Assembly (NCBI GenBank): GCA_027314515.1
Contig: DAHVAR010000186.1
Coordinates: forward strand, 1-57,270
Reading direction: 5' to 3'
Source: Actinomycetota bacterium
GTDB lineage: Bacteria; Actinomycetota; Actinomycetes; Streptosporangiales; Streptosporangiaceae
DNA: 57,270 nucleotides
Shown: in pieces, positions 10,057-35,140 of the stretch
How the letters are laid out: every line of letters starts with the position of its first letter
Position numbering within the stretch: the stretch's first letter is position 1
The notes under the pieces: model-generated
What the model saw: only the letters and a program-made list of their open reading frames with translations
Databases searched by the model: none
Told to the model about the DNA's origin: nothing
Program-made: the position numbers and the translations under genes

Positions 10057-10062
10057 GGCTTC

Positions 10063-15837: not shown

Positions 15838-15857
15838 TCAGTCCCCTGCGGCTCGGC

Positions 15858-15871
15858 TAGAACGCGTTCTA
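15858..15871. promoter_or_regulatory. KstR-type operator, perfect palindrome
   Basis: TAGAACGCGTTCTA is a perfect 14-bp palindrome and fits the KstR consensus TnnAACnnGTTnnA at every fixed position. It lies between the start of the acyl-CoA dehydrogenase gene (15837) and the end of the next upstream gene (15917), where a promoter is expected. In mycobacteria and rhodococci KstR represses cholesterol side-chain genes and is released by steroid-CoA. Confidence 0.85.
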
Positions 15872-15916
15872 CCCAATGCTAACGGACCCGTACAAGACCG
15901 GGCCGGCTTCCTCAGC

Positions 15917-16531
15917 TCATCGGTTGCGACCCAGCCACAACGGGATCGTCAGGCCGGTCGCGATGACCGCGGCCGTGGCTGCGATGACCCGGATGACCGG
16001 CGACAGGACCCCGCCGTGCAGAGCCGGCAGCTCAGCCACACCGACGGCCAGGGCGGCAAGGCCGAACCCCGCCGCGATCAGCGGCAGTTGGGCGCGCAGC
16101 ACGCCGGCTCCGGCATGAGTCTCGGCCAGGTGCACAGCCAGCAGGTAGCCGAGCAGCGGCAGGCCGAGCAGGCCGGTATGCCAGGGCCGGGATCTGTGCA
16201 GGACCTCGAGCAGCAGCACTGCTACCGCCATCGCCTGCGCCCACGGCAGGCCGCGCACGATCGTCAGCAGGTACTCGGCAGTCCGGTGAACCAGCGAGCC
16301 GAGCGCCGCTTCGCTCGGCCTGCCGCCCCCCACCAGCAGCCGGATCACGCTGAGGGCGCCGCAACCGATCGCGAATGGCAACACCACGCTGGTGCCGCCC
16401 GCGCCGCCGGACAGGGGCAGGGCAGCCCAGCCCACCGAAACGCCGGCCAGCAGGGCCACGGAGGCGATCGTGCGCCAGCGGCGCGGCGCCGCGATCACCC
16501 GGCTGTCAGCCTGGTGCGGGCTCGCGATCAC
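15917..16531 (-). CDS. Integral membrane protein of the DUF58 operon
   Basis: The 204-residue product has about six hydrophobic segments (for example ASVALLAGVSVGWAALPL, FAIGCGALSVIRLLV, AVAVLLLEVL and VIAATAAVIATGLTIPL) and no recognisable catalytic motif. The GTG at 16531 forms a GTGA overlap with the DUF58 stop, which decides the start; longer frames upstream are shadow of DUF58. It closes the DUF4129-DUF58 operon. Function unknown. Confidence 0.72.
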   Translation of the reverse strand: MIASPHQADSRVIAAPRRWRTIASVALLAGVSVGWAALPLSGGAGGTSVVLPFAIGCGALSVIRLLVGGGRPSEAALGSLVHRTAEYLLTIVRGLPWAQAMAVAVLLLEVLHRSRPWHTGLLGLPLLGYLLAVHLAETHAGAGVLRAQLPLIAAGFGLAALAVGVAELPALHGGVLSPVIRVIAATAAVIATGLTIPLWLGRNR

Positions 16532-17799
16532 CGGCGGACCACCATGACCTGCCCGGTGTACCGGGCGAGCGGACCGTCCAGGCTGCTGCGACCATCCCAG
16601 TGCACGACTGGCACACCGAGCTCGAGCATGGCGAACCTGATGGCCTGCTGCTCCAGCCGCCATACCCGCCGGGCCAGCGCTGAGACCTTGCTGCCGTCGT
16701 CGCCGGGCTCAGAGTTGAGCACATCGATGATGACGACGCTGAATCCCCGCTCGCGAACGTCGCGCACAGCTTCCACGAGGCCGGCATCCAGCAACGGGCT
16801 GAATACCACGATCAGCGATCCCGGCGGCAGGGCGGCCCTCGGCAGCCTGGTAAAGCCGGCCGCCTTGTCGGAGCCGCCTGGACTCGACATCAGCAGGTCA
16901 AGCAACCGCTGAAAATGCCGCTCGCCCTGGCCGGGGGCGACCCAGTTCAGCCGGCTCGCGTACATGACGAGGCCGACGCGGTCCCGGTCAGCCAGGTAAC
17001 GGCTCATCACGCCGGTAGCGCCCCTGAGCACCAGGTCGAGTGAGCTGGCGCCCGGCTCACCGACGTCAGCCGTGGCGTCGGCGATAACGACGACGTTCTG
17101 GATTCGCTCCGCCGCGAACGTGCTCAGGTGGATGCTGCCACGCCGGGTCGTGGCCGGCCAGTTGATCCGCCGCTGCCGGTCTCCAGGCACGAACTCACGG
17201 ACGCCGACGAACTCGCTGCCCTCGCCGGTCGCCCTGGACGGGTGTTCGCCCAGCCGGCTAGGCAGCCGACTGAGCAGAATAGTCCGGCTCAGGTGAGCGG
17301 GCTCTGGCCGGCAGTCGATCCATGGCAGCCCGAGGCGGGTCGAGCCTTCGGTCAGCCGGTAGCGATCCCTGAGGGTGATCGCAAGCATGCCGACCTGCCG
17401 GCGCCCCCAGCGCTGCGCGGTGAACGGCAGCAGGACGTGGGCGGGGCCAGGGATCACGACCGCGGACCCTGGCGTGATCGCCTCGCTTGGCTCGATACGC
17501 AGCTCGGCGGCATAGTCGCCCTGACCGTCTACGTCGACCTGCAGCGCCGAGGGATGACCCTCGGCGAACCCGCTGTCGACCGGGCGGATCCGCACCCGCA
17601 GCCGACCCGGGCGTGCCGCGCGGACGGTGGAGAGCAGCACTATGGCCGGCGCCGCCAGGCCAGCGAATTCTGGCCGGTGGGTAACGACGGCCAGCGCAAG
17701 CGCGGCGACCGCGAGCGTGAGCAGGCGCCCGGCATGTGCCGACGGCCGCCAGCGGACCGGCACATGCCGGTCGCCGGTCTCGTAGCCGTAGTCAGCCAC
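16528..17799 (-). CDS. DUF58 domain protein with von Willebrand A-like fold
   Basis: The 423-residue protein has two N-terminal membrane segments (near 25-60). A beta-rich middle follows, then the DUF58 signature FVGVREFVPGDRQRRINWPATTRRG (near 205-230). A VWA-like domain beginning VVVIADAT and DRVGLVMYAS completes it. DUF58 proteins usually act with a MoxR AAA+ ATPase as a chaperone or assembly system at the membrane. Here it lies in a DUF4129 operon, but no MoxR gene is present beside it. Confidence 0.88.
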   Translation of the reverse strand: MADYGYETGDRHVPVRWRPSAHAGRLLTLAVAALALAVVTHRPEFAGLAAPAIVLLSTVRAARPGRLRVRIRPVDSGFAEGHPSALQVDVDGQGDYAAELRIEPSEAITPGSAVVIPGPAHVLLPFTAQRWGRRQVGMLAITLRDRYRLTEGSTRLGLPWIDCRPEPAHLSRTILLSRLPSRLGEHPSRATGEGSEFVGVREFVPGDRQRRINWPATTRRGSIHLSTFAAERIQNVVVIADATADVGEPGASSLDLVLRGATGVMSRYLADRDRVGLVMYASRLNWVAPGQGERHFQRLLDLLMSSPGGSDKAAGFTRLPRAALPPGSLIVVFSPLLDAGLVEAVRDVRERGFSVVIIDVLNSEPGDDGSKVSALARRVWRLEQQAIRFAMLELGVPVVHWDGRSSLDGPLARYTGQVMVVRR

Positions 17800-17859
17800 C
17801 GGCTGTTACCTGGCCAGTTCCCCGGCCGGGAGGCTGATCGGAGTCGAAGCCGGGTTCGG

Positions 17860-18450
17860 TCACAATCGCTCCAGCCGGTCGATGATCTCGGTCAGTGTCC
17901 GCTGCGGGATTCCCTGGCGGGTCGAGCGCTGCTCGGCCGGCCGCGCGGGATCAAGCCAGTACCACAGCCCGTCGTCGGGTTCGCCCGCCAGCAGCAACCG
18001 CCGGGCCGCCTCGGGATCGGCGTACAGGCTCACGCTATGCCGCTCGGCGAGCCTGGCCGCAAGCAGATGCTGGAGCGTTGGCCGCAGGTCGGCGTCGTAG
18101 CTGCGCATGCTGGTAGTTGCGTCGACCAGGAGGCCTCGTTTCCGCCAGAACCCGATGTAGCTTCCCTCGCCCGGCGGCTGCCCGCTCTCGTCCTGCGTGA
18201 CGAACTCAGCAGGCGTCCCTGGCACCAGTGCGCGGAGCAGGATCAGGATCACTACTGCCCAGGCGATCACCGTGGCGAAAGCGGCGGCAGATCCGGCATA
18301 GCCGTAAGCGGCGACGGCGGTGACGGTCACCATCGCGCAGGTGATGATCAGCTCCGGCCACAGTGCCCGCCAGCCGCCGGTTGCCGGTGCGGCAGCGCTT
18401 GCGTCCGGTGCGGGCGGGCGGGCGGCCGCCGGGCCCGGCACGTTGCTCAT
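17860..18450 (-). CDS. Membrane protein with C-terminal soluble domain, unknown function
   Basis: A Pro/Ala-rich N-terminus is followed by two close hydrophobic segments (WPELIITCAMVTVTAVAAYGY and AAAFATVIAWAVVILILL). A soluble domain of about 100 residues follows, with FWRKRGLLVDATTSMRSYDADLRP. The start overlaps the DUF4129 stop (ATGA), so it is coupled to it. In the usual operon order a MoxR ATPase could be expected near here; this protein has no Walker motifs. I do not recognise a named family. Confidence 0.75.
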   Translation of the reverse strand: MSNVPGPAAARPPAPDASAAAPATGGWRALWPELIITCAMVTVTAVAAYGYAGSAAAFATVIAWAVVILILLRALVPGTPAEFVTQDESGQPPGEGSYIGFWRKRGLLVDATTSMRSYDADLRPTLQHLLAARLAERHSVSLYADPEAARRLLLAGEPDDGLWYWLDPARPAEQRSTRQGIPQRTLTEIIDRLERL

Positions 18451-19424
18451 GTGGCCGCCCTCGCGGCTGCCGCATCCGGCTGCCGGCTGGCTCCCGCTGT
18501 CGCCTGCAGGTCAGCGGAGATGGCTTCCAGCGCCCGCATGGCGTCCTGCCTGGCGGCCGCCGGAAGCGCGTGACTGGAGTACCGGGCTTCGTAGAACAGC
18601 ATCGTCAGCCGACTCGCGGCGGTGTCGCGACTGGCAGCCGTGTCGTCGCCCGCGGCAGCGTCGCGGAGCAGGCCCGCCCGCACCGCCCGGTCCAGCAGCT
18701 CGGCCGAAGTCTCGGCGCCGTACCTGGCAGCCCCCGCACTACCCAGGCTCTCTTCCATGGTCACATAGCAGGCGATGATCGCGGCGCGGGCGTCGTCAAT
18801 CGAATGCAGCGCCCGCAAGCCCGACTCGACCGCCTGCCGAAGGCCGGCGTCGTCATCATCGGCCCGTTCAGCGGGTTGCGCTGTCACGGCTCGCCGCCGG
18901 TGCACGATGACGCCGATGACGATGACCGCTAGCACCAGCAGCGCCAGCCCGGCGAACCCGAAGAACTCGACCTCGGCCCTGGTCAGGCCGCTGACGGGGG
19001 TGAATAGCGAATTCGGGCCTAGCGTCGGCACGAAGACGAGCGGATTGCCGTAGTACTTCTTAAGCCCCGGCCAGACCAGGCTCGACACGGTCACCGCGAG
19101 GACGACGACCATGGCGCTCCGGATTGTCCGGTCCAGGAACAACCGCATCCGGGCGGTCAGGTAGCTTGGCTCCGGCGCACGTCGCCGGAGCGCCCGCGCC
19201 GTGAGCAGGAGCGCAAAGAGCACGAGCTCGGCGCACGCGAAAACGATCCCGCCCGTCTCCCGCCAGGGACCATCCTGCGTCAGGCGGCGGCCGGAGGTGC
19301 TGACGCCGACGAAAGTGACTACCAGGAGTAGTCCGGCGATCACCGGTCGCGTGAGAGCCGTGCGGCGCAACGGCCCGCGGCCAGCGAGCAGCCGTCGCCG
19401 GGAGAGTTGCCCGCTGGATACCAC
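18447..19424 (-). CDS. DUF4129 domain membrane protein
   Basis: The 325-residue product has four hydrophobic segments (near 28-46, 62-78, 103-120 and 155-175). A C-terminal cytoplasmic DUF4129 domain follows, recognised by AIIACYVTMEESLGSAG, RYGAETSAELLDRAV and LTMLFYEARYSSHALP. It is the first gene of the operon. GTG 19424 has GGGAG 4 nt upstream. DUF4129 genes typically sit with MoxR/DUF58 genes and a transglutaminase-like protein in a membrane-linked assembly; biochemical role unproven. Confidence 0.85.
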   Translation of the reverse strand: MVSSGQLSRRRLLAGRGPLRRTALTRPVIAGLLLVVTFVGVSTSGRRLTQDGPWRETGGIVFACAELVLFALLLTARALRRRAPEPSYLTARMRLFLDRTIRSAMVVVLAVTVSSLVWPGLKKYYGNPLVFVPTLGPNSLFTPVSGLTRAEVEFFGFAGLALLVLAVIVIGVIVHRRRAVTAQPAERADDDDAGLRQAVESGLRALHSIDDARAAIIACYVTMEESLGSAGAARYGAETSAELLDRAVRAGLLRDAAAGDDTAASRDTAASRLTMLFYEARYSSHALPAAARQDAMRALEAISADLQATAGASRQPDAAAARAAT

Positions 19425-19549
19425 TGCGCTCCCTGCTTACCCGACCTGGCCGAATTTCTGGCCAGTTTATGCACATCACGCAGCGACGCCGCGGCTCGCA
19501 GCGTAACGGGCAAGCAAGCAGCGAGGCCGACGGCCGGCCATGTCAAGAT

Positions 19550-20851
19550 ATGGCGATGAGCAGCCCCCGCGATGTCGCGATGGACCTGATCGCCTTCCTC
19601 GATGCCTCCCCGTCGCCCTATCACGCCGCCGTCGAGGCACTTCGGCGGCTGACTGCGGCCGGCTTCACCGAGGTCCCGCCGGGCGGAGCCTGGCCGTCCG
19701 GTCCGGGCCGTCATGTCGTGCTGGACGGCGGCTCGCTGTTCGCCTGGATCGTGCCCGACGGCTGCGCTCGCGACGCGCCGTTCCGGCTGCTGGGCGCGCA
19801 CACCGACAGCCCGGCGCTCCGCGTCAAGCCCCGGCCGGACACTGGCCAGGCCGGCTTGCGCCAGCTTGGCGTGGAGATCTACGGTGGCCCGCTGCTCAAT
19901 TCCTGGCTAGACCGCGACCTCGGCCTGGCCGGACGGGTCGCCGTGCGCACCGCTGGCGGTCCGCAGGTCCGGCTGATCCGGGTGCACCGGCCAGTGCTCC
20001 GGGTCCCGCAACTGGCCATCCACCTGGATCCCGAGATCCGTACCGCCGGGCTGAAGCTGGACGCCCAGCAGCACCTGGTGCCCATCTGGTCACTCGGCGA
20101 CCCGGAGCCGGGCGGCTTCCGCCGGTTCCTGGCCGCCGAACTCGGCGTCGGTGCCGATGATGTGCTGAGCCACGACATAGTGACCTATGACCTGGCGGGC
20201 GGCACGCTAGCCGGAGTCAGCGAGGAGTTCGTCAGCTCAGCCCGGCAGGATGACCTGGCCTGCTGTCATGCGTGCGTGTCGGCGCTGTGCACGGTCCCGG
20301 CGCGGCCAGCCCCGCAGCACGTCAGCGCGGTGGTCCTGTTCGACAACGAGGAGATCGGCAGCCGGTCGGCCACCGGTGCGGACGGCGCCTGGCTGGGCAG
20401 GCAGCTGGAGCGCAGCGTGCTTGCCCGCGGCGGCGGCCGCGACGACTTCCTGCGCGCGGTCGCGGCCTCGCTCCACGTGTCCGCGGACATGGCACACGCC
20501 ACGCATCCCAACTACCCGGACAGGCATGAGCCCGGGCACTGGATCGCACTCGGCGGCGGCCCGGTGCTCAAGGTCAGCGCGAACGTCTTCTACAGCACGA
20601 CCGCGCCGACTCAGGCCGCCTTCCTGCTCGCCGCCGAGCAGGAAGGCGTTCCGGTTCAGTACTTCGTCAACAAGAGCGGCGTGCGCAGCGGGTCGACTAT
20701 CGGCCCGATCGTCGCCGCGGGCCTGGCGATGCCGACCGTGGATGTGGGTAACCCGACCCTGGCCATGCACTCCGCGCGCGAACTGACCGGGACGGCGGAC
20801 GCCGCGATGCTGACCGCGGCACTGACCGCCTTCCTCAGCCCGGCCCGCTAG
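19550..20851 (+). CDS. M18-family aspartyl aminopeptidase
   Basis: A zinc metallo-aminopeptidase of about 433 residues that removes N-terminal acidic residues in the cytoplasm. Metal and catalytic motifs of M18 are in order: LGAHTDSPALRVK, VEIYGGPLLNSWLDRDL, FDNEEIGSRSATGA, SADMAHATHPNY and TLAMHSARE. Starts at 19550 and 19556 are both possible; no Shine-Dalgarno is seen and the mRNA could be leaderless. It is divergent from the DUF4129 operon. Confidence 0.92.
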   Translation: MAMSSPRDVAMDLIAFLDASPSPYHAAVEALRRLTAAGFTEVPPGGAWPSGPGRHVVLDGGSLFAWIVPDGCARDAPFRLLGAHTDSPALRVKPRPDTGQAGLRQLGVEIYGGPLLNSWLDRDLGLAGRVAVRTAGGPQVRLIRVHRPVLRVPQLAIHLDPEIRTAGLKLDAQQHLVPIWSLGDPEPGGFRRFLAAELGVGADDVLSHDIVTYDLAGGTLAGVSEEFVSSARQDDLACCHACVSALCTVPARPAPQHVSAVVLFDNEEIGSRSATGADGAWLGRQLERSVLARGGGRDDFLRAVAASLHVSADMAHATHPNYPDRHEPGHWIALGGGPVLKVSANVFYSTTAPTQAAFLLAAEQEGVPVQYFVNKSGVRSGSTIGPIVAAGLAMPTVDVGNPTLAMHSARELTGTADAAMLTAALTAFLSPAR

Positions 20852-20870
20852 CCCGGCCCGCTAGCCCGGC

Positions 20871-21221
20871 CTACGGCCGACGCCGCAGTCCCTGCCCGCG
20901 GGCGAAGTCGAGCGCCTCGGTCGCGAGCGACAGCCACTCCAGGCCGGAGTCGGGGTCGAGACTGAGCCACTCCCGCATCGGCGTGCCCTTGTTAGCGTCG
21001 AAGGCCGCGCCGTTGCCGGACCGGATCAGCGCTGTTACCCGGCTGGCCGGCAGCTTGAGCACAAGCCTGCCACGGACCAGCATCGCGAAAATCCGGCCTT
21101 CGTACCGCAGGGCGCTGCGGCCGAACCCGCCACCGCCACGTGGCGGCATCACGCCCTCGACGCCGGCTAGCTCGTGGACCAGGTCCTGGTACCGATCCCG
21201 CATCGGGTCCGCGCCTGCCAC
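20871..21221 (-). CDS. TfoX/YjbR-like small protein
   Basis: The 116-residue protein has a compact alpha/beta pattern: FGRSALRYEGRIFAMLVRGRLVLKLPASRV, then KGTPMREWLSLDP. This resembles the TfoX N-terminal/MmcQ-YjbR superfamily found singly in actinomycetes. Those proteins are small and often labelled DNA-binding on thin evidence. It ends 19 nt from the convergent M18 gene. Family is moderately sure; function is unknown. Confidence 0.65.
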   Translation of the reverse strand: MAGADPMRDRYQDLVHELAGVEGVMPPRGGGGFGRSALRYEGRIFAMLVRGRLVLKLPASRVTALIRSGNGAAFDANKGTPMREWLSLDPDSGLEWLSLATEALDFARGQGLRRRP

Positions 21222-21251
21222 GCCTACCAGGCTAGTCCGTACTCGGCCCGG

Positions 21252-22169
21252 CTACCTCGTCGACCGCGCCGAGGCGATGTCGTTGAGGGCATCGCCGATC
21301 TGCCGGAACGCCAGCACGGTGACGACAAGCGCGATCAGCGCGGGGTACACCTCCCACGGATAGCTGTCGAACAGGTCGTTGACACCGTTGGTCAGCATGG
21401 TGCCCCAGTCAGCGAACGGCGGCGGCGGGCCAAGGCCGAGGAAGCTCAGCGCAGACAGGCTGTAGATCGCGTCAGCCACGGCGAAGGTGGTAGTCACGAT
21501 GAAGATGTTGAAGGTGTTGGGCATCATGTGCCGGAACAGGATGCGCATTCGCGTCGAGCCCATGGTCGTCGACGCCTGCACGAACTCACGGGTCCGCAGG
21601 GACAGCACCTGGCCCCGGACAAGCCGGCTCACGTAGGGCCAGGACAGCAGCGAGAGCAACAGGATGATCGACAGCAGGTTCAGCGTGAACATGCTGGCCA
21701 CGATCAGCAGCAAGATAAATGTCGGCACGGCCAGCAGCGTGTCGACGATCCGCATCAGGAACGCGTCGACAAGGCCGCCGATCATGCCGGAGATAGCGCC
21801 GTACAGCGCACCGATCACGGTGCTGATGATTGCTACGGCGAACCCGAGTTCCAGCGATGACTGGCCGCCGACCATCAGCCTGCCCAGGATGTCGATGCCG
21901 TACTCGTCAGTGCCGAGCGGATGACCGCCGCCCGGCGGCAGGTTCGCAAGATTGAGGTTGACGGTCGTCTGGTTCGTCCCGTAGATGAGCGGCCCGACGA
22001 AGCAGAACAGGATCAGCAGCAGGACGACCATGCAGCCGCCCATGGCGCGCTTATTGTGCAGGAAGTCGTCGAGCGCCAGGCTCCTGCCGCCGGTCCTGCT
22101 GCTTACCTCGCCGCCTTCCGGCGCGGGGCCGACCGAACCGGCGATCGCGGCGTGCTCAGCCGGCTGCAT
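21252..22169 (-). CDS. Peptide-type ABC transporter permease (DppC/OppC family)
   Basis: The 305-residue protein has an OppC N-terminal segment (ALDDFLHNKRAMGGCMVVLLL, near residues 35-60) and PLGTDEYGIDILGRLMVG. Six membrane segments follow, with the EAA loop that docks to the ATPase (EFVQASTTMGSTRMRILFRHMMPN). ATG 22169 has AGGA 6 nt upstream and overlaps the upstream permease by 14 bp; the TTG at 22202 has no such support. It imports oligopeptides or another large polar substrate together with the two upstream genes. Confidence 0.9.
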   Translation of the reverse strand: MQPAEHAAIAGSVGPAPEGGEVSSRTGGRSLALDDFLHNKRAMGGCMVVLLLILFCFVGPLIYGTNQTTVNLNLANLPPGGGHPLGTDEYGIDILGRLMVGGQSSLELGFAVAIISTVIGALYGAISGMIGGLVDAFLMRIVDTLLAVPTFILLLIVASMFTLNLLSIILLLSLLSWPYVSRLVRGQVLSLRTREFVQASTTMGSTRMRILFRHMMPNTFNIFIVTTTFAVADAIYSLSALSFLGLGPPPPFADWGTMLTNGVNDLFDSYPWEVYPALIALVVTVLAFRQIGDALNDIASARSTR

Positions 22170-23112
22170 GCCTGATCCTGGGATCGATGACGCCGTAGGC
22201 AATGTCCGCGGCGAGGTTGCCGAGCACGGTCGCCACGCCGATGATCAGCGTCGCCCCGAGCATCACCGGGAAGTCGTGGCTCAGCGCCGATTGCCAGAAC
22301 AGCAGGCCCATGCCGGGGAAGTTGAAGATGGCCTCGGCGATCACCGCGCCGGCCACGATGTTCGGCAGCGACAGGCCGAGGATCGTGATGATCGGCAGCA
22401 GCGCGTTGCGGAGCAGGTGCCTGGTAAGAATCAGCCGCTCGCGCAGGCCCTTGGCGCGCGCGGTGCGGATGTAGTCCTGGGTCAGTTCCTCGATCGCAGA
22501 CGAGCGCATGTACTGGCTGAAGCCGGCCACGCTGTTGATCGCGAGCACGATCACCGGCAGGATCATCGCGTTCGGGTCGGCGAACAGGCCGCCCACCGAG
22601 GTGATGCCGCCGGTGAAGCTTGGCTGCAGCACATGGAAATGCACGCTGAACACGGCGATCAGCAGCAGGGCTTCCATGAAGTCCGGTGCCGAGTACAAGG
22701 TGAACCAAGTGCCCGCCACGATGTCGTCCCGCAACGTGCCGCGATGGATGGCCTGATACAGCCCCATCGGCACGCCGATGATCAGCGCGAGCACGGTGGA
22801 GATGCCGATCAGCACGGCATCGCGCGGCAGTCGCTGCGCGATCAGGGTCGATACCGGCTGCCCGGCCACGTAGGAGATCCCGAAGTCGCCGTGCACTACG
22901 TGCACGCAGTACAGCCAGAACTGGACCGGCAGCGGCCGGTTGAGCCCGTAGGTGTTATCGAATATTGCCACCTTCGCAGGCGTCGCCTTCTGCCCGAGCA
23001 CCGCACGGGCCGTGCTGCCCGGCTCCAGGTGAACCAGGATGAACGTCAGGATCATCACGCCGACGATGACGGCGACCGACTGCCCGATCCTGCGAACGAT
23101 GTACCAGGTCAT
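22156..23112 (-). CDS. Peptide-type ABC transporter permease (DppB/OppB family)
   Basis: The 318-residue protein begins MTWYIVRRIGQSVAVIVGVMI, the usual OppB start. It has six membrane segments and an EAA loop (DYIRTARAKGLRERLILTRHLLRNALLP). Its ATG overlaps the stop of the substrate-binding gene by 4 bp (ATGA), which fixes the start. It forms the translocation pore with the downstream permease. Confidence 0.92.
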   Translation of the reverse strand: MTWYIVRRIGQSVAVIVGVMILTFILVHLEPGSTARAVLGQKATPAKVAIFDNTYGLNRPLPVQFWLYCVHVVHGDFGISYVAGQPVSTLIAQRLPRDAVLIGISTVLALIIGVPMGLYQAIHRGTLRDDIVAGTWFTLYSAPDFMEALLLIAVFSVHFHVLQPSFTGGITSVGGLFADPNAMILPVIVLAINSVAGFSQYMRSSAIEELTQDYIRTARAKGLRERLILTRHLLRNALLPIITILGLSLPNIVAGAVIAEAIFNFPGMGLLFWQSALSHDFPVMLGATLIIGVATVLGNLAADIAYGVIDPRIRHAAG

Positions 23113-24947: not shown

Positions 24948-25016
24948 TCGACAACTCCTCCGGCTCAAGACGATCGCGACGGGAAATTGTCCCGCCTTCG
25001 TCGCTGCTGGTAGCCG

Positions 25017-25044
25017 TTATAAGCGGTGTCAGCGAGACTTATAA
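25017..25044. promoter_or_regulatory. Inverted repeat upstream of the ABC transporter operon
   Basis: TTATAAG (25017-25023) and CTTATAA (25038-25044) form perfect 7-bp arms around 14 nt. AT-rich hexamers here (TATAAC/TATAAG on the minus strand) could double as -10 elements of the binding-protein promoter about 70 nt upstream of its start. Operator and promoter roles are inferred. Confidence 0.5.
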
Positions 25045-25098
25045 AGAGGTCGCGGCCATTTTTAACCACACTGTGACACGCTGGGTGATTCCACCGGG

Positions 25099-26013: not shown

Positions 26014-26021
26014 TGCGTTCT

Positions 26022-26048
26022 CCTGTTCTGCCTGTTCTGCCTGTTCTG
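26022..26048. repeat. Three 9-bp tandem repeats in the epimerase leader
   Basis: The unit CCTGTTCTG is repeated three times without gaps. On the minus strand it reads CAGAACAGG, so each copy offers an AGG; only the last forms AGGAG close to ATG 26013. Copy number could alter ribosome loading or spacing. Confidence 0.8.
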
Positions 26049-26117
26049 CCCGGAGTGCTGGCTGCGCCGCGGGCCGCCAGCCGCCAGACCTCAGCCGGGC
26101 ACGACCTCGCGATTAGC

Positions 26118-26201
26118 GAGCACTGCTCTCTTTTGTAATCGGCAGTCTTTCACAACAGGTGCGCTCTCGCAAGAGCACTGCTCTCTAATGTGTGCGATAA
26201 T
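26118..26201 (+). promoter_or_regulatory. Twin TetR operators and leaderless -10
   Basis: Two matching palindromes lie in the divergent promoter: GAGCACTGCTC (26118-26128) and AGAGCACTGCTCT (26172-26184), with centres 55 bp apart. GATAAT (26196-26201) lies 7 nt before ATG 26209 of the TetR gene. The second operator sits just upstream of that -10 and the first nearer the epimerase. This fits autoregulation and control of both genes. Confidence 0.75.
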
Positions 26202-26208
26202 CTTGGCT

Positions 26209-26907
26209 ATGCCAGCAGCATCCATCCGGGCCAGGGTTCGGGCAGAGATGATCGAAGAGATCAAGACAGTCGCCCGCCAGCGCCTGGCAGCCGAGGGGGC
26301 CAATCTGTCGCTGCGCGCCGTCGCCCGCGACATGGGCATGGTGTCGTCGGCCCTGTACCGCTACTTCGCCAGCCGGGACGACCTGCTCACCGTGCTGATA
26401 CTGGACGGCTACAACGCGCTCGGCGACGCGGTGGAAGCGGCCGATGCCGCGGTGACTGACCGGACCCGGCTCCGCGCCCGGTGGCTCAGCGCGACGCGCG
26501 CCGTCCGCGACTGGGCGCTGGCGAATCAGGCCGAGTACGCGCTGCTCTACGGCAGCCCGGTACCCGGCTACGCCGCGCCGCAGGACACGATCGCCGCCGC
26601 TGCCAGGACGCCGATCGTGCTGGCAGCGATCCTGACCGACGGATACGCAGCTGGCATAGTGACCGCGGCCGGCTTTCAGCGGCCCGCATCACTGCCCGCC
26701 GCGGTGCGGACCGACCTCTCGCGCACCCGCGACCAGATCGCGCCAGGGCTGCCCGAAGAACTCCTCCACGCCGGGCTGACCTGCTGGCTGCAGCTCTTCG
26801 GCGTGCTCAGCTTCGAGCTGTTCGGGCAGCTCAACAACGTGATCGACGCCCGCGCCGAGTTCTTCGGCCAGCAGATGGAGCTCATGGCCGATCTGATGGG
26901 TATCTAG
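26209..26907 (+). CDS. TetR-family regulator
   Basis: The 232-residue protein has an N-terminal HTH (AAEGANLSLRAVARDMGMVSSALYRYFASRDDLL, residues about 24-60). Its C-terminal domain has WLSATRAVRDWALANQAEYALLYGSPVPGYAAP, typical of the WHG-domain TetR group. ATG 26209 was chosen because a GATAAT -10 stands 7 nt upstream, giving a leaderless message; longer frames would run through the operators. It probably represses itself and the divergent epimerase. Ligand unknown. Confidence 0.87.
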   Translation: MPAASIRARVRAEMIEEIKTVARQRLAAEGANLSLRAVARDMGMVSSALYRYFASRDDLLTVLILDGYNALGDAVEAADAAVTDRTRLRARWLSATRAVRDWALANQAEYALLYGSPVPGYAAPQDTIAAAARTPIVLAAILTDGYAAGIVTAAGFQRPASLPAAVRTDLSRTRDQIAPGLPEELLHAGLTCWLQLFGVLSFELFGQLNNVIDARAEFFGQQMELMADLMGI

Positions 26908-26970
26908 CTCCCGGTGCTATCCAGGCGAGCATGATGGTTCCGCTGGGTGGTCGCGATAGAGGGAGGGCAC

Positions 26971-27831
26971 ATGGCATCGGAACTGGCTGGCCGGCTCGGA
27001 AAGTTCGGGATCTGGCGGGCAGCTGCCCAGGCGACGCCGGAACTGGCCGCGGCCATCGAGCGGCTCGGCTACGGCACCCTGTGGCTCGGCGGCTCCCCGG
27101 ACGGCGACCTGGCGATCGCCGGGGAACTGCTCGGCGCGACGACGACGCTGACCGTCGGAACCAGCATCGTGAACATATGGAAGGACGACGCCGAAACGGT
27201 CGCCAGGTCGTACGCCCGGCTGCAGGCCAGGCACCCCGATCGCTTCGTGCTCGGCGTCGGTGCGGGCCACCCGGAAGCCACACCGCACTATGCCAGCCCG
27301 TACGAGACTCTCGCGAGGTACACCGACCAGCTTGTCGCTAACGACGTTCCCGCCCATCGCATCGTCCTTGCCGCTCTCGGCCAGCGGGTGCTGCACCTGG
27401 CAGCCGACCGTACCGGCGGTGCCATCCCGTACCTGGTGCCACCGGAGCACACCCGGCTAGCGCGGGAGATTCTCGGCCCGGACCGCCTGCTGGCGCCCGA
27501 GCACAAGGCGGTGGTTGACAGCGACGTGACGCGGGCCAGGGCGCTCGGTCGCAGCCGCGTCAGCAATCCGTACCTGCGCCTGGTCAACTACACCTCGAAC
27601 CTGCGCCGGCTCGGCTTCACCGACGAGGATCTGGCCGACGATGGCAGTGACCGGCTGATCGACGCGCTGGTCGCGCACGGCAGCCCGGATCAGGTAGCCG
27701 CGCAGCTTTCCGCGCACCTGGCGGCGGGCGCCGACCACGTCTGCATCCAGTTGCTCACGGAGGCCGACGCCGATCCGCTGCCGGGCTACACCCAGCTAGC
27801 CGCCGCGCTCGGCCTTGCCCCAAGGGAGTAG
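26971..27831 (+). CDS. F420-dependent LLM-class oxidoreductase
   Basis: The 286-residue luciferase-like barrel begins LGKFGIWRAAAQATPELAAAIERLGYGTLWLGGSP, the start of the TIGR03620-type group. It has TVGTSIVNIWKDDAETVARSY and RFVLGVGAGHPEA. Such proteins transfer hydride from F420 or flavin to largely unknown substrates. ATG 26971 follows GAGGGAGGG. It reads in the same direction as the TetR gene, 63 nt downstream. Confidence 0.85.
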   Translation: MASELAGRLGKFGIWRAAAQATPELAAAIERLGYGTLWLGGSPDGDLAIAGELLGATTTLTVGTSIVNIWKDDAETVARSYARLQARHPDRFVLGVGAGHPEATPHYASPYETLARYTDQLVANDVPAHRIVLAALGQRVLHLAADRTGGAIPYLVPPEHTRLAREILGPDRLLAPEHKAVVDSDVTRARALGRSRVSNPYLRLVNYTSNLRRLGFTDEDLADDGSDRLIDALVAHGSPDQVAAQLSAHLAAGADHVCIQLLTEADADPLPGYTQLAAALGLAPRE

Positions 27832-27930
27832 CGCGTGACGTGACCAGCATGCTCCGGCGAACAGGCGGTCCCAACCGCTAGGCCGCTATCGGCGTCACAG
27901 CGGTATCGGTTTCCCGCTAAGGAGCACACC

Positions 27931-28536
27931 ATGAAGCTGATCACCAAAGCACCCCGGCGCATGATCACTGCCGCCGCCATCGCGAGCGCCGCGGCCTTGC
28001 TTCCTGCCGTCGCCCTCGCGTCCTCCGCCGGATCCGGGCAGGCCGCCGCAGCCCAGCCGCGTACCGTGACCCTGGTACGAGCGAGCGCCCGGCCGCACTG
28101 CGCGCGGAGCCGGCTGACCGCCTGGATCGGAATCCCTGGCAGCGGAGCCGCAGGCAGCATCTACTACCCGCTTGAGATCTCCAACATCTCGCACCGGACC
28201 TGCACGCTGTACGGGTTCCCTGGCGTCTCAGCGCTCAGCGCCAACGGCAGGCAGCTCGGTTCGGCGGCCGGTCGTGCCCGCGGCTACCCCGAGCTGACCG
28301 TGACCCTGCGCCCCGGCCAGACGGCACACGCGGTGCTGCAGATCGTCGAGGTCGGCAACTTCCCCCGCGCCGCCTGCCGCCCGGCAACCGCGTACACGCT
28401 GCGCGTGTACGCGCCCGGTGACCTCGCCTCGATGCGGATCCCGTTCTCGTTCCGGGCCTGTCGCCGGAGCGGTCCGGTGTACCTGCACGTGAGCACCACG
28501 ATCTCCGGCACCGGCATACCCGGTTACGACAGCTGA
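27931..28536 (+). CDS. Secreted DUF4232 protein
   Basis: A cleavable signal peptide is evident (MKLITKAPRR, then hydrophobic MITAAAIASAAALLPAVALASS). The 201-residue product then has the DUF4232 pattern: CARSRLTAWIG, YYPLEISNISHRTCTLYGFPGVSAL, TLRPGQTAHAVLQI and a late Cys pair. Two disulfides are likely. DUF4232 proteins are common exported actinomycete proteins without a defined role. The start has GGAG upstream (taaggagcacacc). Confidence 0.85.
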   Translation: MKLITKAPRRMITAAAIASAAALLPAVALASSAGSGQAAAAQPRTVTLVRASARPHCARSRLTAWIGIPGSGAAGSIYYPLEISNISHRTCTLYGFPGVSALSANGRQLGSAAGRARGYPELTVTLRPGQTAHAVLQIVEVGNFPRAACRPATAYTLRVYAPGDLASMRIPFSFRACRRSGPVYLHVSTTISGTGIPGYDS

Positions 28537-28760
28537 CGGATTACCGAGGGGAACGGGCGCTATCCGGCTGCGGCGGGCCGGCCGGAACCGGCCGGCCCGC
28601 CGCTGTGGCACGGTCCGCGGACAGCTGCCGTTCCCGTTCGTTGCTCGCCAGCGTGGCCGGGCGAATCCGGCCCGTGCTTCCTCCTCGCGGCCACGTCTGC
28701 GCAGCCGAAGTTTCCGCTAGTTTTCGGCACGGCCCGTCGGCTGGCCCGTTACCAGGCAGA

Positions 28761-29108
28761 ATGGCAGATGTGGCGAATCTGGTGATCAACGACGACACGG
28801 TTACCGTCGCGATGTCCGCGGCCGAGAAGGCTGAGGCCCTGCACCGCGACCTGACCTTCCCCCGCAGCTCGGTGACGGGCGTCCGGGCCGTCGACGACGG
28901 CATGGCAGAGGTTCACGGCATGCGCATGCCCGGTGCCTACTTTCCGGACGTGATCATGGTCGGCACCTGGCGCAGCGGGGACGGCAATACCTTCGCCGCC
29001 TGTCATGGCAGCGGCCCAGCCATCGTCATTGACCTCGCCGGACAGCACTACGACCGGATCGTGATGACGGTCGGCGACCCGCAGGCGGCGGTTACCAGCT
29101 TGTCCTGA
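28761..29108 (+). CDS. Conserved actinomycete protein of unknown function
   Basis: A 115-residue cytoplasmic protein with a pattern seen repeatedly in actinomycetes: DDTVTVAMSAAEKAEALHRD, FPRSSVTGVRAVDDGMAEVHGMR and VIMVGTWRSGDGNTFAACHG. It resembles a small PH-like beta barrel, but no function is known to me. ATG 28761 is chosen because the conserved block starts right after it; the upstream frame is not conserved in character. Confidence 0.7.
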   Translation: MADVANLVINDDTVTVAMSAAEKAEALHRDLTFPRSSVTGVRAVDDGMAEVHGMRMPGAYFPDVIMVGTWRSGDGNTFAACHGSGPAIVIDLAGQHYDRIVMTVGDPQAAVTSLS

Positions 29109-29142
29109 CGGCGTTGCTGCGACAGATCGGCGGGCCAAGACG

Positions 29143-30186
29143 ATGACGTGGACGCGCAGGAAGATCGTCTTCTCGGTTGCGGGAGCGATCGCGAGCGTCG
29201 CTGTCGCTGCGAGCCTCGGCCTGGCACTGGGCGGCGCGCCTGCTCACAAGGCCGCAGCACCGCCCGGCCGGACCCCGACCCCGACCCCGGCCGCTACCCC
29301 GACCCGGACCGTGGCCGGCCGGCTGTTGTCCCCGTTCACCGGCGAACCGGTGAAGTCACTCGGCCCGGTACTCGCCGTGAAGATCGACAACATCGTGTAC
29401 GCGCGGCCGCAGACCGGGCTGACCGACGCTGACATCGTGTACGTGCTGCCCGTGGAAGGCGGGCTCAGCCGTTTCATGGCCATCTTCTCTTCGCACTTCC
29501 CGCCGGTCATCGGCCCGGTGCGCAGCGCCAGGCACGACGACCTCGAGCTGCTGCGGCAGTTCGGCCGGCCGGCGTTCGCATGGTCAGGGGCTCAGCCGCA
29601 GCTGACCAGAGTGGTGGAGCGTGCCAGGATCGTGGATCTCTACGATGCCCTGGTAGGCGGCTACTTCCGGGACCCCAACCGGATCGCGCCCTACAACCTG
29701 TACGCATACACCCGCCAGCTGCTCGCCGAGGCCAAGGGCGCCAGCAAGGCACACAACATCGGGTTCAGGTTCGGCCCGCCCAACCGTGGCGGGCGCGTCG
29801 TCTCGTCGGCGTCGGTGTCTTACCCAGCCGCGTCCTTCAGGTTCACCTGGTCAGCCCGACGGGGACGCTGGCTGATCTGGATAGACGGCGCCAGGGCGGC
29901 TAGCACCGAAGGCCCCCAGCTATCGGCCGCTACGGTCGTGATCCAGCACACGGTCGTGCGGACCTCCAGTTACCTGGAGTACGGCCGACGGCCGCCGTAC
30001 GCCGAGAGCACCGGGCACGGCACCGCTATCGTGCTGCGCAACGGGAGGGCCTACCAGGTCACCTGGTCCCGGCCTCGCCAAGACGGCGGGACGACGTTCA
30101 CCACCCGTTCTGGCCAGCCGATGAGATTCGCGCCGGGCCCGGTGTGGATCGTCCTGGTTGGCAATCCGGTAGCCGAGTCGGGCTAA
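29143..30186 (+). CDS. Secreted DUF3048 (YerB-like) protein
   Basis: The 347-residue protein has an N-terminal membrane/signal segment (IVFSVAGAIASVAVAASLGLALGG) and a Thr/Pro-rich linker (TPTPTPAATPTRT). The DUF3048 body follows: VLAVKIDNIVYARPQTGLTDADIVYVLPVEGG, FPPVIGPVRSARHDDLELLRQF and GRAYQVTWSRP. Family members are exported proteins in Gram-positives of unclear envelope function. Its stop overlaps the convergent ipdB stop by 4 bp. Confidence 0.87.
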   Translation: MTWTRRKIVFSVAGAIASVAVAASLGLALGGAPAHKAAAPPGRTPTPTPAATPTRTVAGRLLSPFTGEPVKSLGPVLAVKIDNIVYARPQTGLTDADIVYVLPVEGGLSRFMAIFSSHFPPVIGPVRSARHDDLELLRQFGRPAFAWSGAQPQLTRVVERARIVDLYDALVGGYFRDPNRIAPYNLYAYTRQLLAEAKGASKAHNIGFRFGPPNRGGRVVSSASVSYPAASFRFTWSARRGRWLIWIDGARAASTEGPQLSAATVVIQHTVVRTSSYLEYGRRPPYAESTGHGTAIVLRNGRAYQVTWSRPRQDGGTTFTTRSGQPMRFAPGPVWIVLVGNPVAESG

Positions 30187-31016
30187 CGACCTGCCAGTTC
30201 CCGGTCGCGTCGCGCCTGCGGATCGAGCCGGTTGCGGATCAGCGCGAGCTCCGCCTCGGTGGGCAACCGGGTCTGCGGCACCTGGTACGGCGCCGCGAGC
30301 AGGAAGCCGGTCGCGTCCGCGACGTCGGAGACGGAGACACCGGGATGACATGAGCGCAGCCGCATCGAGCGATCAGGCCCGCCGAAGTCGAGCACTGCCA
30401 GGTTGGTCACGACCCTGCGCAGCTCATGGAACCGGCCGGAGCGCCCGGTCAGGCCGGCGGCCCGGTCGTAGCCCACGCCGCTGACCATGTCGACCCGGTC
30501 GACCAGGACCCGGCGTGAATGCTTCGGCACCCAGTAGCTCACCGGGTGATTGACGGTATTGCCCGGAGCACCGCGGGCGCCGAGCAACTGAGCCTTGGGG
30601 CGGGCCCAGTCGCCGATGCAGGAGATGTTCTGGTTACCGAACCGGTCGAGTTGCGAAGCGCCCATCATCACGTGCCGCTTGCCTGCCGCCAGCAAGGTGA
30701 AGACCTGGCGGAACGGCAGCCAGCCCTCGGTGACCAGGCCGTCGCCCGCCTCCCGGTCTCCCGCCGAGCCGTCGCTCGCACCGTGGTCAGGCGCACCGTG
30801 GTCAGGTACGCCGTCCCGGCCATCGGCCGCTGGTGCCAGCAGCGTCGCCTCACCGTCGGTGAGCAGCAGCTCCGGCTCGAACGTGAGCTGCGCGAGCCGC
30901 GCGCCCAGGGCGGGGATGACGCCCATCGGGCTGGCCAGGATAGCCCCGTCGCCGCGCCACGCTTCCGCGCAGGCGACCACGCAGATCTCCGCCATCGTCG
31001 GCTCACCCCGGCTCAT
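30183..31016 (-). CDS. ipdB: Steroid C/D-ring hydrolase subunit IpdB (CoA-transferase family beta subunit)
   Basis: With IpdA it forms the hydrolase that opens the last steroid ring of COCHEA-CoA in cholesterol catabolism. The 277-residue protein has ICVVACAEAWRGDGAILASPMG, LLLTDGEATLLA, GASQLDRFGNQNISCIG, GAPGNTVNHPVSYWVPKHS and LRSCHPGVSVSDV, as in IpdB. An extra Asp/Gly-rich stretch (near residues 66-92, with repeated DHGAPDHGA) interrupts the usual spacing. Its start overlaps the ipdA stop by 4 bp, giving equal expression. No acyl transfer role is needed if it follows known IpdAB. Confidence 0.88.
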   Translation of the reverse strand: MSRGEPTMAEICVVACAEAWRGDGAILASPMGVIPALGARLAQLTFEPELLLTDGEATLLAPAADGRDGVPDHGAPDHGASDGSAGDREAGDGLVTEGWLPFRQVFTLLAAGKRHVMMGASQLDRFGNQNISCIGDWARPKAQLLGARGAPGNTVNHPVSYWVPKHSRRVLVDRVDMVSGVGYDRAAGLTGRSGRFHELRRVVTNLAVLDFGGPDRSMRLRSCHPGVSVSDVADATGFLLAAPYQVPQTRLPTEAELALIRNRLDPQARRDRELAGR

Positions 31017-31903
31017 GCCCGCGGCCCATCGGTGCCGCCGTCACCGGCACGGCCCGGCAGGCTGGCGCCGGTGAACCGCGCTACCGCGGCCTGATAGTCC
31101 GCTTCCGTGCCGGACAGGAACTCCGCCGCGAAGTCCCGCCAGGCCTCGGGGTCTCCTGCCGAGCCGGCGTACCGGGCCTGGAACGCCTCGTCCCTGTCGT
31201 AATCCGGAACGCAGCTGGTGAAGTGCGCGCCGCGCGGCGTCTCCACCACGCCCGCCACCATCGCGCGGTTGATCAGCAGGCTCTGCGGCGGCCCCGCTGC
31301 CAGCAGGTCGGCGGTCGGCACAATCCGCTCGCAGGACAGGTAGGCGCGCTGCGCTGCCAGGCAGTACAAGTCGTCGAAGTACGGATCCGGCCCGAGGTAC
31401 TGACCGTTCCCGCCCGCATCGGCCCGGTTCATGTGCACGAACGCGGCATCCAGCGGCACCGCCGGAACCGCGACGAACTCCTCGCCGTCACCGTAGGGCG
31501 ATCGCACGGTGCGCAGGTCCCGGTTGACCCGGAGCAGATCGGAGCCGAGCCCGGCCCGCATCGGCAAGAACGGCAGCCGGTGCGCGGCTGCCAGCAATCC
31601 CCAGTGCAGCATGCCCTCGTCGAGTTCGGTGAGCTCGATGAGGGCATGCTCGCGGGCCCGGCGGAAGTGCGGCTCCAGCGGAATCGAGTCCAGCGACACG
31701 AATCCGGTGACCAGCCGCCGGACTTTGCCGGCGGCGACCAGAAGCCCGACGTCAGGGCCGCCAAAGCTGACGATCGTCAGCCCGGACAGGGCCGACGCAG
31801 CGAGCGCCCGGACCAGCGCCATCGGCTTGCGCCGCGAGCCCCAGCCGCCGATCCCGATGGTCATGCCGGAGCGCAGTTCGCCGATGACGTCGTCGAGCGT
31901 CAT
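31013..31903 (-). CDS. ipdA: Steroid C/D-ring hydrolase subunit IpdA (CoA-transferase family alpha subunit)
   Basis: The 296-residue protein reads TLDDVIGELRSGMTIGIGGWGSRRKPMALVRAL, FGGPDVGLLVAAGKV, LPFLPMRAGLGSDLLRV, DPYFDDLYCLAA and FLSGTEADYQAAV. This is an end-to-end match to the IpdA pattern. The start is ATG 31903 or the adjacent GTG 31906; no clear Shine-Dalgarno is visible. It is the first gene of ipdAB and divergent from an SDR gene across a short region holding an inverted repeat. Together with the KstR-type sites it marks steroid degradation. Confidence 0.9.
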   Translation of the reverse strand: MTLDDVIGELRSGMTIGIGGWGSRRKPMALVRALAASALSGLTIVSFGGPDVGLLVAAGKVRRLVTGFVSLDSIPLEPHFRRAREHALIELTELDEGMLHWGLLAAAHRLPFLPMRAGLGSDLLRVNRDLRTVRSPYGDGEEFVAVPAVPLDAAFVHMNRADAGGNGQYLGPDPYFDDLYCLAAQRAYLSCERIVPTADLLAAGPPQSLLINRAMVAGVVETPRGAHFTSCVPDYDRDEAFQARYAGSAGDPEAWRDFAAEFLSGTEADYQAAVARFTGASLPGRAGDGGTDGPRA

Positions 31904-32015
31904 CACGCGGCTGACGGCTCGGCCCGCCACTGGCCCGGTCAACGAGCGCCTGCCGCGGGGTCGCTGACCTGCAGCCTGGTGGCCATCGACAAATCCTCGC
32001 TCGCGCCGGAACCTA

Positions 32016-32034
32016 ACGTTCGCCTCGCGAGCGT
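32016..32034. promoter_or_regulatory. Imperfect inverted repeat between ipdA and the divergent SDR
   Basis: Arms ACGTTCGC and GCGAGCGT around CTC differ at one base pair. The site lies in the ipdA/SDR intergenic region, where a shared operator would be expected. It does not resemble the KstR or KstR2 consensus, so another regulator may act here. Function inferred from position only. Confidence 0.4.
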
Positions 32035-32111
32035 AACACTCAACCGGACGGCTGACGGCCTGGTGCACGGCGCCCCGGCCGGCATCGGCGTTCCCGCTTA
32101 GCATGAGCGCT

Positions 32112-32912
32112 ATGCACGCGGACAGCAGCCCGGCAGCGGCTGGCATCCGGCCAGGCCTGGCCGTCGTCATCACCGGCGGTACCAGGGGCATCGGGGCCGG
32201 CCTCGCCCGCGCTTTCCTGCAGGCAGGCGCCGAAGTCCTGGTCTGCGGCCGGAACCGGCCCGCCGGCCCTGCCGAGTTGCCCGGCGCTGGCGGCCGCGCT
32301 GCCGAGTTCTGCCAGGCCGACGTCCGCGACCCAGAGCAGGTCAGCAGGCTGGTGGCCACCGCGACGGAATTGTTCGGGCGGCTCGACCTCGTGATCAGCA
32401 ACGCAGGCGGCTCGCCCGAAGCAGCGGCTGCCGCGGCCTCGGCCCGTTTCCATCGGAGTGTCATCGAGCTCAACCTGCTGGCACCGCTGCAGGTGGCGCA
32501 GAGCGCGAATGCCGTCATGCAGACCCAGGACGGCGGCGGCTGCATCATCATGATCAGCAGCGTCAGCGGCCTGCGGCCGTCACCTGGCACCGCGGCCTAC
32601 GGCGCCGCGAAGGCCGGCTTGCACCACCTCGTCACGAGCCTCGCGATCGAGTGGGCGCCCGCGGTGCGGCTGAATTGCGTCGCGCCGGGGTTCGTCGACA
32701 CCGCCGGCGCTTCCGGTCACTACGGCGACGCGGACGGCACTGCGGCCGTGCGCCGGACGGTACCGCTACGGCGACTGGCGACTCCGGACGACGTTGCCGG
32801 CGCCTGCCTGTTCCTCGCCTCGCCGCAAGCGTCATACATCAGCGGATCGACGCTGGTGCTGCACGGCGGCGGCGAGCCGCCAGCCTTCCTGGCCGCCCGG
32901 ACAGACGGCTAG
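32112..32912 (+). CDS. Short-chain dehydrogenase/reductase, divergent from ipdAB
   Basis: A 266-residue SDR with ITGGTRGIGAGLARAFLQAGA (cofactor), SNAGGS, Ser in MISSVSG and YGAAK as the catalytic Tyr-x3-Lys. ATG 32112 is favoured over ATG 32103 because TAGCAT (32099-32104) stands 7 nt upstream as a leaderless -10. SDRs next to ipdAB in mycobacteria take part in steroid C/D-ring degradation, so a hydroxyacyl-CoA or ring-alcohol substrate is plausible. The substrate itself is not determined by sequence. Confidence 0.87.
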   Translation: MHADSSPAAAGIRPGLAVVITGGTRGIGAGLARAFLQAGAEVLVCGRNRPAGPAELPGAGGRAAEFCQADVRDPEQVSRLVATATELFGRLDLVISNAGGSPEAAAAAASARFHRSVIELNLLAPLQVAQSANAVMQTQDGGGCIIMISSVSGLRPSPGTAAYGAAKAGLHHLVTSLAIEWAPAVRLNCVAPGFVDTAGASGHYGDADGTAAVRRTVPLRRLATPDDVAGACLFLASPQASYISGSTLVLHGGGEPPAFLAARTDG

Positions 32913-32980
32913 CCGCCAGGATGGGCGGCCAGAGCCAGCTATACCGTTACCCGAACCCGCCGGTATACCCTCCGAGGAAG

Positions 32981-32994
32981 TAGAACAGGTTCCA
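32981..32994. promoter_or_regulatory. KstR-type operator before the aldehyde dehydrogenase
   Basis: TAGAACAGGTTCCA fits TnnAACnnGTTnnA at all fixed positions. It ends 16 nt before ATG 33011, between the SDR end (32912) and the aldehyde dehydrogenase. This is the second KstR-like site in the window. Confidence 0.78.
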
Positions 32995-34657: not shown

Positions 34658-35140
34658 TTACCGGCCGAGCAGCTTGGCGTGGTCCCAGGAAATGACCTTG
34701 ACCGGATCGACGATGTAGGCATAGCGCTTGCGTGCCGCGTCAGCAACGTACTGGCTGATGGCACTGTTATCGGCCTGCCCCGCGGCGTCCGCCCTGGCGT
34801 TCCCCATCACGCTGCCGACGGCCAGGCCGATCTGATAGACGGCATCGGGGTCGGTGATCGTCTGCACCGTGCCCTGAACCTGCACGCCGCGCAGGTCGAA
34901 ATAGCCCTCGCCGGTCTCCACCAGGCAGCTGATCCGCGGATCGCGAGCGAGGTTCAGCGCCTTCTGCGACGTCCGGTAGGTCCAGAAAGCGATCTTGCCG
35001 TCGACCAGCGTGTAATACATGGTGACCAGGTGCGGGTAGCCATCGGGGTTGATCGTCGCGAGCTGCACCTTACGATTGGCCGCCAGCATGTCCGCGACCT
35101 CAGCCGCGGTCATCTGAACTCGGTCGCGCTGCTTCGGCAT
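34658..35140 (-). CDS. PPOX-class flavin/F420-dependent oxidoreductase
   Basis: The 160-residue split-barrel protein has VQLATINPDGYPHLVTMYYTLVDGKIAFWTYRTSQKALNLARDPRISCLVETG. This is typical of the pyridoxamine-phosphate-oxidase-like superfamily whose actinomycete members bind FMN, FAD or F420. Its ATG shares 1 bp with the stop of the upstream SDR (TAATG), so the two are coupled. It may reduce an unsaturated intermediate made by that SDR, but the substrate is unknown. Confidence 0.85.
   Translation of the reverse strand: MPKQRDRVQMTAAEVADMLAANRKVQLATINPDGYPHLVTMYYTLVDGKIAFWTYRTSQKALNLARDPRISCLVETGEGYFDLRGVQVQGTVQTITDPDAVYQIGLAVGSVMGNARADAAGQADNSAISQYVADAARKRYAYIVDPVKVISWDHAKLLGR

Follow-up and report, generated by a model that had tools for sequence, protein, structure and literature searches.

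Predicted KstR operators before chsE4–chsE5 and an aldehyde dehydrogenase gene in a Streptosporangiaceae genome

The 57,270-nucleotide contig DAHVAR010000186.1 of assembly GCA_027314515.1 (an Actinomycetota bacterium of the Streptosporangiaceae; the whole contig is referred to here as the window) carries a pair of acyl-CoA dehydrogenase genes and an aldehyde dehydrogenase (ALDH) gene, each preceded by a short sequence that resembles an operator of the steroid regulator KstR. A preliminary description of the window proposed that these two boxes, together with ipdAB, mark a regulon for sterol or bile-acid catabolism. The locus raises two questions: are the boxes operators of a KstR encoded in the same genome, and what might an ALDH be doing under such control? 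The genome (G000; 5.86 Mb in 280 contigs, the window being contig C88) was analysed with genes called by our own codon-usage script, and was compared with related genomes (G numbers) and ALDH loci (L numbers).

Two predicted operators and their regulator

The window contains exactly two matches to TnnAACnnGTTnnA (the same search, with the pattern written TNNAACNNGTTNNA), at 15858 and 32981, and both lie at promoters, as first proposed. Box 1 lies in a 79 bp gap between called genes, with the ATG of the minus-strand chsE4 homologue 20 bp beyond the end of the box; the ATG of the ALDH gene is 16 bp downstream of the end of box 2. The dehydrogenase pair is homologous to a known member of the KstR regulon. 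Its best match in the PDB is 4x28, which we take to be ChsE4–ChsE5 (FadE26–FadE27) of Mycobacterium tuberculosis, a C26-oyl-CoA enzyme, and the next-best entries, 6wy8 and 6wy9 (423 and 244 bits), score far below it.

The position of box 1 is conserved. ChsE4 was searched for in 40 relatives, ten of which encode a protein with 65% identity or more across the aligned region, and the full consensus precedes chsE4 in eight of these ten. The box lies within about 35 bp of the chsE4 start in G001, G003, G005, G006, G007, G008 and G021, and begins 72 bp upstream in G031. ChsE4 matches of at most 57% identity, which probably represent different dehydrogenases, lack a full box immediately upstream. 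A separate locus search with five aligned ALDHs, limited to the best 80 of 525 relatives, of which 78 passed the thresholds, gave 57 loci with an ALDH at least 60% identical; 52 of these loci also contain chsE4. The full pattern occurs within 300 bp upstream of chsE4 in 50 of these 52 loci from named genomes, the remaining two (L140 and L142) having one-mismatch boxes, versus none of the 52 for a reversed control pattern (background expectation 0.019 per window). The ALDH gene has its own box within 300 bp in 14 of the 57 loci, versus 0 of 57 for the control. The 52 chsE4 loci are not independent, as many are from Lentzea, Amycolatopsis and Prauserella; collapse at 85% identity left 34 distinct upstream sequences, that of the window included. 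The two sets also overlap: contigs of G005, G021 and G025 recur in the locus set as L107, L108 and L140.

Some observations weigh against reading the boxes as operators. The loose pattern is no commoner genome-wide (22 sites) than its reversed control (19 sites), so that the pattern alone is little proof and the case has to rest on position and conservation. Among the ten close ChsE4 relatives, G009 lacks a box and G025 has only a one-mismatch box. A −10-like element (TAGCAT, TACTAT or TAGACT) lies 3–5 bases upstream of the chsE4 palindrome within the genus, but was not seen in the wider aligned upstream set outside it, and the idea of a −10 conserved beyond the genus was dropped. The contexts of 13 of the 22 genomic sites were inspected. 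Seven are in gaps that hold the promoters of steroid genes: the two window boxes, four on C131 and one on C39, so that five further boxes of the kind that the preliminary description had recommended looking for do exist. Of six sites taken from the remaining 15, four (on C90, C6, C242 and at C11:23366) fall within called genes, one (C241) is beside an H2TH-domain gene and an MFS gene, and one (C229) is in an ambiguous gap. That both window boxes are chance matches is nevertheless hardly credible, because of the counts upstream of chsE4 and ALDH given above and because 100 shuffled windows held on average 0.04 matches and never two. As a separate observation, a one-mismatch palindrome, AAGAACACGTTCTA, lies about 70 bp before an open reading frame (ORF) for a luciferase-like oxidoreductase (G000:C203:7443; L039:1501-1514), a possible further member of the regulon.

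The genome also encodes the regulator. A homologue of kstR, the gene for this TetR-type repressor, lies on contig C39 (L018:10361-10993, minus strand); its product scores 134.5 bits with PF17925 and 266 bits against solved KstR (3mnl and kin), and the stretch GTLYRYFPSK, presumably part of the recognition helix, is identical in the two. The objection that the genome might have no kstR homologue, which the preliminary description had itself named, therefore does not apply. The gene next to the box of the fused dehydrogenase on C39 was at one point taken for kstR; it is deaminase-like, and kstR lies 1.1 kb further on. This deaminase-like gene and a small ORF (L018:11477-12873) separate kstR from the box, whereas in G021 kstR and the fused-dehydrogenase gene are direct divergent neighbours with a box in between.

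In principle, real operators could be the target of a different TetR protein, for instance a KstR3-type regulator or the KstR paralogue on C125 (L031:2069-2707), which has 77 bits to KstR and adjoins at least one acyl-CoA dehydrogenase-like gene. A third regulator, kstR3, is present in Mycolicibacterium neoaurum (PMC10398937). However, the C39 protein resembles KstR much more strongly (266 bits), and box 1 has the mycobacterial KstR palindrome TAGAAC-N2-GTTCTA (PMC1995591), which makes another reader very improbable. From their sequence and setting, both boxes are very probably operators of the KstR encoded on C39.

The remainder of the genome bears on the substrate. EchA19, a steroid 3-ketoacyl-CoA thiolase of the FadA5 type, HsaA, HsaB, HsaC, HsaD and KstD score over curated cut-offs and KshA was found by Pfam; the markers of the aerobic 9,10-seco steroid pathway (KshA, KstD, HsaA, HsaC and HsaD) are all present. 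Contig C131 holds an acyl-CoA synthetase that we take to be of the FadD19 type, EchA19, DUF35 and thiolase-like lipid-transfer genes, HsaA, B, C and D, KshA and KstD, as well as a P450 that its own model left unnamed but that adjoins the FadA5-type thiolase, the position of CYP125. The fused double dehydrogenase with a KstR-type box on C39 is presumably FadE34-like. Steroid catabolism is thus supported by kstR and the pathway genes, and of the two substrates that had been proposed sterols are favoured over bile acids because the genome has cholesterol-type side-chain genes. A bile-acid pathway is improbable in view of the EchA19, FadA5-type and presumed FadD19-type genes and of 4x28, the presumed C26-oyl-CoA enzyme, as best match of the dehydrogenase pair, although the next-best matches, 6wy8 and 6wy9 (Tcur3481 and Tcur3483), are presumably from Thermomonospora curvata and would point the other way. 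Growth of that species on cholate and its failure to grow on cholesterol are described in PMC4810484, and the cholate route of Pseudomonas includes an ALDH, Sad, after aldol cleavage (PMC4761994 and PMC6678751).

By analogy with known KstR proteins, a KstR dimer bound to the palindrome would lie immediately downstream of the −10 region and cover the transcription start, blocking transcription of chsE4–chsE5 at box 1 and of the ALDH gene at box 2. The mycobacterial KstR site partly overlaps the −10 element (PMC1995591), and 14 aligned ALDH promoters share a conserved TAccCT-like element 9–11 bases upstream of the palindrome. In the presence of sterols, KstR would be released by a metabolite formed early in side-chain breakdown, which in mycobacteria is 3-oxo-cholest-4-en-26-oic acid or a CoA derivative; ChsE4–ChsE5 would then dehydrogenate the sterol side chain for β-oxidation, and the ALDH would probably oxidize an aldehyde of the same route, the C26 aldehyde being a first guess.

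The aldehyde dehydrogenase and its gene module

The ALDH has only broad family matches (StyD, betaine aldehyde). Cys302 and Glu267, which we take to be the catalytic residues, are invariant in five orthologues. Homology of the protein to a known KstR-bound regulon member was not borne out, and the open-access literature on KstR- or sterol-linked ALDHs that was searched describes no role for this subfamily.

In the 52 loci that hold both genes, chsE4 is always on the opposite strand and upstream of ALDH. Of the five loci without it, three (L106, L139 and L155) are cut off by the contig end less than 4 kb upstream; in L107 (G005) chsE4 lies on a different contig, and in L116 there is none within 10 kb; among the best 80 of 525 relatives, chsE4 is present in none of the 21 loci with an ALDH below 60% identity. 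In addition to the 14 loci with an own box, 42 others have, directly in front of ALDH, a homologue of the window's Hsd4A-like SDR (short-chain dehydrogenase/reductase), and only L155 has neither. The name Hsd4A for the window SDR is our assumption, drawn in part from the Saccharopolyspora hirsuta gene order. Two layouts recur, with family names that we assigned from genus names. In presumed Pseudonocardiaceae, chsE5–chsE4 faces an operon of Hsd4A-like gene, ALDH and SDR. In presumed Micromonosporaceae and in the clade of the window (relatives labelled Streptosporangiaceae), ipdBA, often with an SDR, precedes an ALDH gene that has its own box. Counterparts of the SDR directly upstream of the window ALDH adjoin it in G005, G008 and several named loci. 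Box 2 has counterparts at the ALDH orthologues of G005, G008 and G021 but not at that of G025; in G021, chsE4 and ALDH are divergent neighbours with one box common to both. A contig labelled as a Bifidobacterium breve metagenome-assembled genome (L161) also carries an ALDH (55%), with SDR spacing as in Actinobacteria bacterium IMCC26207 (L160), and is probably a mislabelled bin.

The distribution of the ALDH, which is not general, counts against the proposed reading. Of six same-genus relatives with ChsE4 at least 82% identical, only G005 and G008 have an ALDH orthologue, which is missing from G001, G003, G006 (98% complete) and G007. In a class sample of 394 genomes, scored on the top three to four candidates per genome only, 55 bear ChsE4 and two of them the ALDH (the genome studied here and G391). 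The ALDH as a necessary partner of ChsE4 was rejected on these grounds. A further point concerns Rv0223c of M. tuberculosis and MSMEG_0309, which we take to be ALDH genes. PDB entry 3b4w, presumably Rv0223c, scores 370 bits against the window ALDH, about equal to human ALDHs, so the two hardly belong to the same subfamily. Like Rv0223c and MSMEG_0309, the window ALDH gene has a KstR-type motif, and Rv0223c was negative in an electrophoretic mobility shift assay (EMSA) (PMC1995591).

It is doubtful, though a serious alternative, that the ALDH is under KstR control to clear small aldehydes or as a broad detoxifier. The unspecific family matches would suit such an enzyme, and the TesG/HsaF aldolase step of ring A/B degradation yields propionaldehyde (PMC6678751). 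Against this stand the linkage to chsE4–chsE5 and Hsd4A-like genes in the 52 loci and the result of querying the ALDH loci for HsaA and HsaC, neither of which was found there. On balance, the gene context makes the ALDH probably an enzyme of the sterol side-chain route. Its substrate can only be suggested: action on a C26 aldehyde between cholesterol and the 26-oic acid is possible but rather unlikely. Somewhat more readily, and still tentatively, the ALDH may be a lineage-specific KstR-controlled step, confined to Pseudonocardiaceae, Micromonosporaceae and some Streptosporangiaceae, that oxidizes the alcohol or aldehyde at C26 to the acid, perhaps with one of the SDRs, or that opens an aldolytic branch like that of Sad. 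In mycobacteria the P450 CYP125 can complete C26 oxidation to the acid alone.

Table 1. Features of the window discussed in the text
Feature	Position	Strand	Assignment or evidence
chsE5 (fadE27) homologue, partner subunit	13381..14586	-	339 bits to PDB 4x28_D
chsE4 (fadE26) homologue, acyl-CoA dehydrogenase subunit	14659..15837	-	606 bits to PDB 4x28_A
Box 1, TAGAACGCGTTCTA	15858..15871	.	Predicted KstR operator of chsE4–chsE5; perfect palindrome TAGAAC-N2-GTTCTA
ipdB, partner subunit by position	30183..31016	-	CoA_trans 21.7 bits, below cut-off 23
ipdA, ring C/D enzyme subunit	31013..31930	-	344 bits to 6co6_A, 'probable CoA-transferase alpha subunit'
SDR dehydrogenase directly upstream of ALDH	32103..32912	+	Pfam adh_short_C2
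Box 2, TAGAACAGGTTCCA	32981..32994	.	Predicted KstR operator of ALDH gene
ALDH, proposed steroid aldehyde dehydrogenase	33011..34519	+	ALDH families
Hsd4A/ChsB1-like SDR	35140..36081	-	PRK07792 394 bits, below cut-off 414
Second SDR of ALDH module	36096..36860	-	Also present in the Saccharopolyspora hirsuta locus L166

Ring C/D genes and the neighbouring hydrolase

The gene families named in the preliminary description were found again for the FadE-type pair, the ALDH and ipdA, the last through its match to 6co6_A, presumably IpdA; ipdB is only weakly recognized and is conserved beside ipdA in relatives. As a prop for KstR control, ipdAB fits steroid catabolism in general but gives the case no strength, since the pair has no KstR box here and is a member of the KstR2 regulon in mycobacteria (PMC3068626). 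The KstR2 site AnCAAGnnCTTGnT is absent, within two mismatches, between ipdA and the SDR. A general KstR2 pattern occurs four times genome-wide versus three for its control, and never on C88 or C168. In eight of the nine named loci inspected, L107 being the exception, a clade-type variant, ACCWARCGCTTGCT, stands ahead of an echA20-like gene and ipdAB, and G008 has a KstR2 consensus site ahead of the same genes. Upstream of ipdAB in the window (31931-32102), the echA20-like gene and a KstR2-type site are both missing; the gene sits on C168 instead (G000:C168:3367-4074), and the variant is absent from the genome at up to one mismatch, which suggests that control of the ring C/D genes may be rewired here. 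Two TetR genes considered for the role are not KstR2, although no search aimed at kstR2 was made: that at 10045-10932 is SCO3833-like (200 bits versus 51 for KstR2) and that on C125 is the KstR paralogue. Nothing in the genome scores over the cut-off for IpdE2.

In the window, chsE4 and ipdAB are separated by some 14 kb (15838-30182) in which no gene has a steroid annotation. G006, the sister genome, is collinear with the window for the greater part of this region. In several Micromonosporaceae loci the two lie 2–3 kb apart.

The hydrolase at 12364-13278, which had been placed in the steroid pathway, was rejected as a member of it on the evidence of its neighbourhood and of the distribution of its homologues. 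It adjoins chsE5 in two of the ten genomes in which the place is visible (G000 and its sister G006) and not in G001, G003, G005, G007, G021, G025, G031 or G039; the contigs of G008 and G009 end too early to show it. None of the 80 ALDH loci (best 80 of 525) has a match of at least 45% identity, and the gene is absent at E <= 1e-60 from the ChsE4-bearing G001, G003, G005, G007 and G008. The nearest homologues outside G000 and G006 (49–52% identity) come from G026, G015 and G010, in which ChsE4 was not found at E <= 1e-80, and weaker ones occur in genomes both with and without ChsE4-like genes. The protein is an alpha/beta hydrolase with fluoroacetate dehalogenases and epoxide hydrolases among its best PDB matches. 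It reads DRGAC, with Cys in place of the second Arg of Asp-Arg-x-x-Arg, which we take to be the fluoroacetate dehalogenase motif.

Comparison with known systems

The predicted regulon is of the known KstR type. What the window adds is its extension to an uncultured Streptosporangiaceae lineage through conserved operators instead of a single motif match, and an ALDH singled out as a testable candidate for an unassigned step of sterol degradation, in bacteria under study for the production of steroids. The nearest counterpart is the fadE26–fadE27 region of Mycobacterium, where Rv3504 is presumably fadE26. The operator type, a close KstR and chsE4–chsE5 as a target are shared, and the box before the ChsE4 homologue of G031 is the M. 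tuberculosis core box TAGAACGTGTTACA. Unlike in Mycobacterium, chsE4–chsE5 of the window is not beside an Hsd4A-like gene, its box is perfectly palindromic, and a further box stands before an ALDH gene of a different subfamily. The M. tuberculosis site at Rv3503c/Rv3504 was EMSA-positive, and the ALDH gene G155_01350 of Mycobacterium sp. VKM Ac-1817D, which has a putative KstR site, is phytosterol-inducible (PMC1995591 and PMC6593523, respectively).

Sad of Pseudomonas cholate breakdown is likewise an ALDH of a steroid side-chain pathway (PMC4761994 and PMC6678751), and the window enzyme is from another phylum. The module is also found in Saccharopolyspora hirsuta VKM Ac-666, where one contig (L166) carries boxes together with chsE4, chsE5, the Hsd4A-like gene, the second SDR and the ALDH (68%). 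The word 'aldehyde' does not occur in the main texts of two papers on this organism (PMC8708139 and PMC9782250), the first of which names hsd4A, chsE4 and chsE5. The ALDH module is also carried by species of Actinoplanes, Salinispora and Amycolatopsis, genera with strains that grew on or metabolized cholesterol (PMC4810484).

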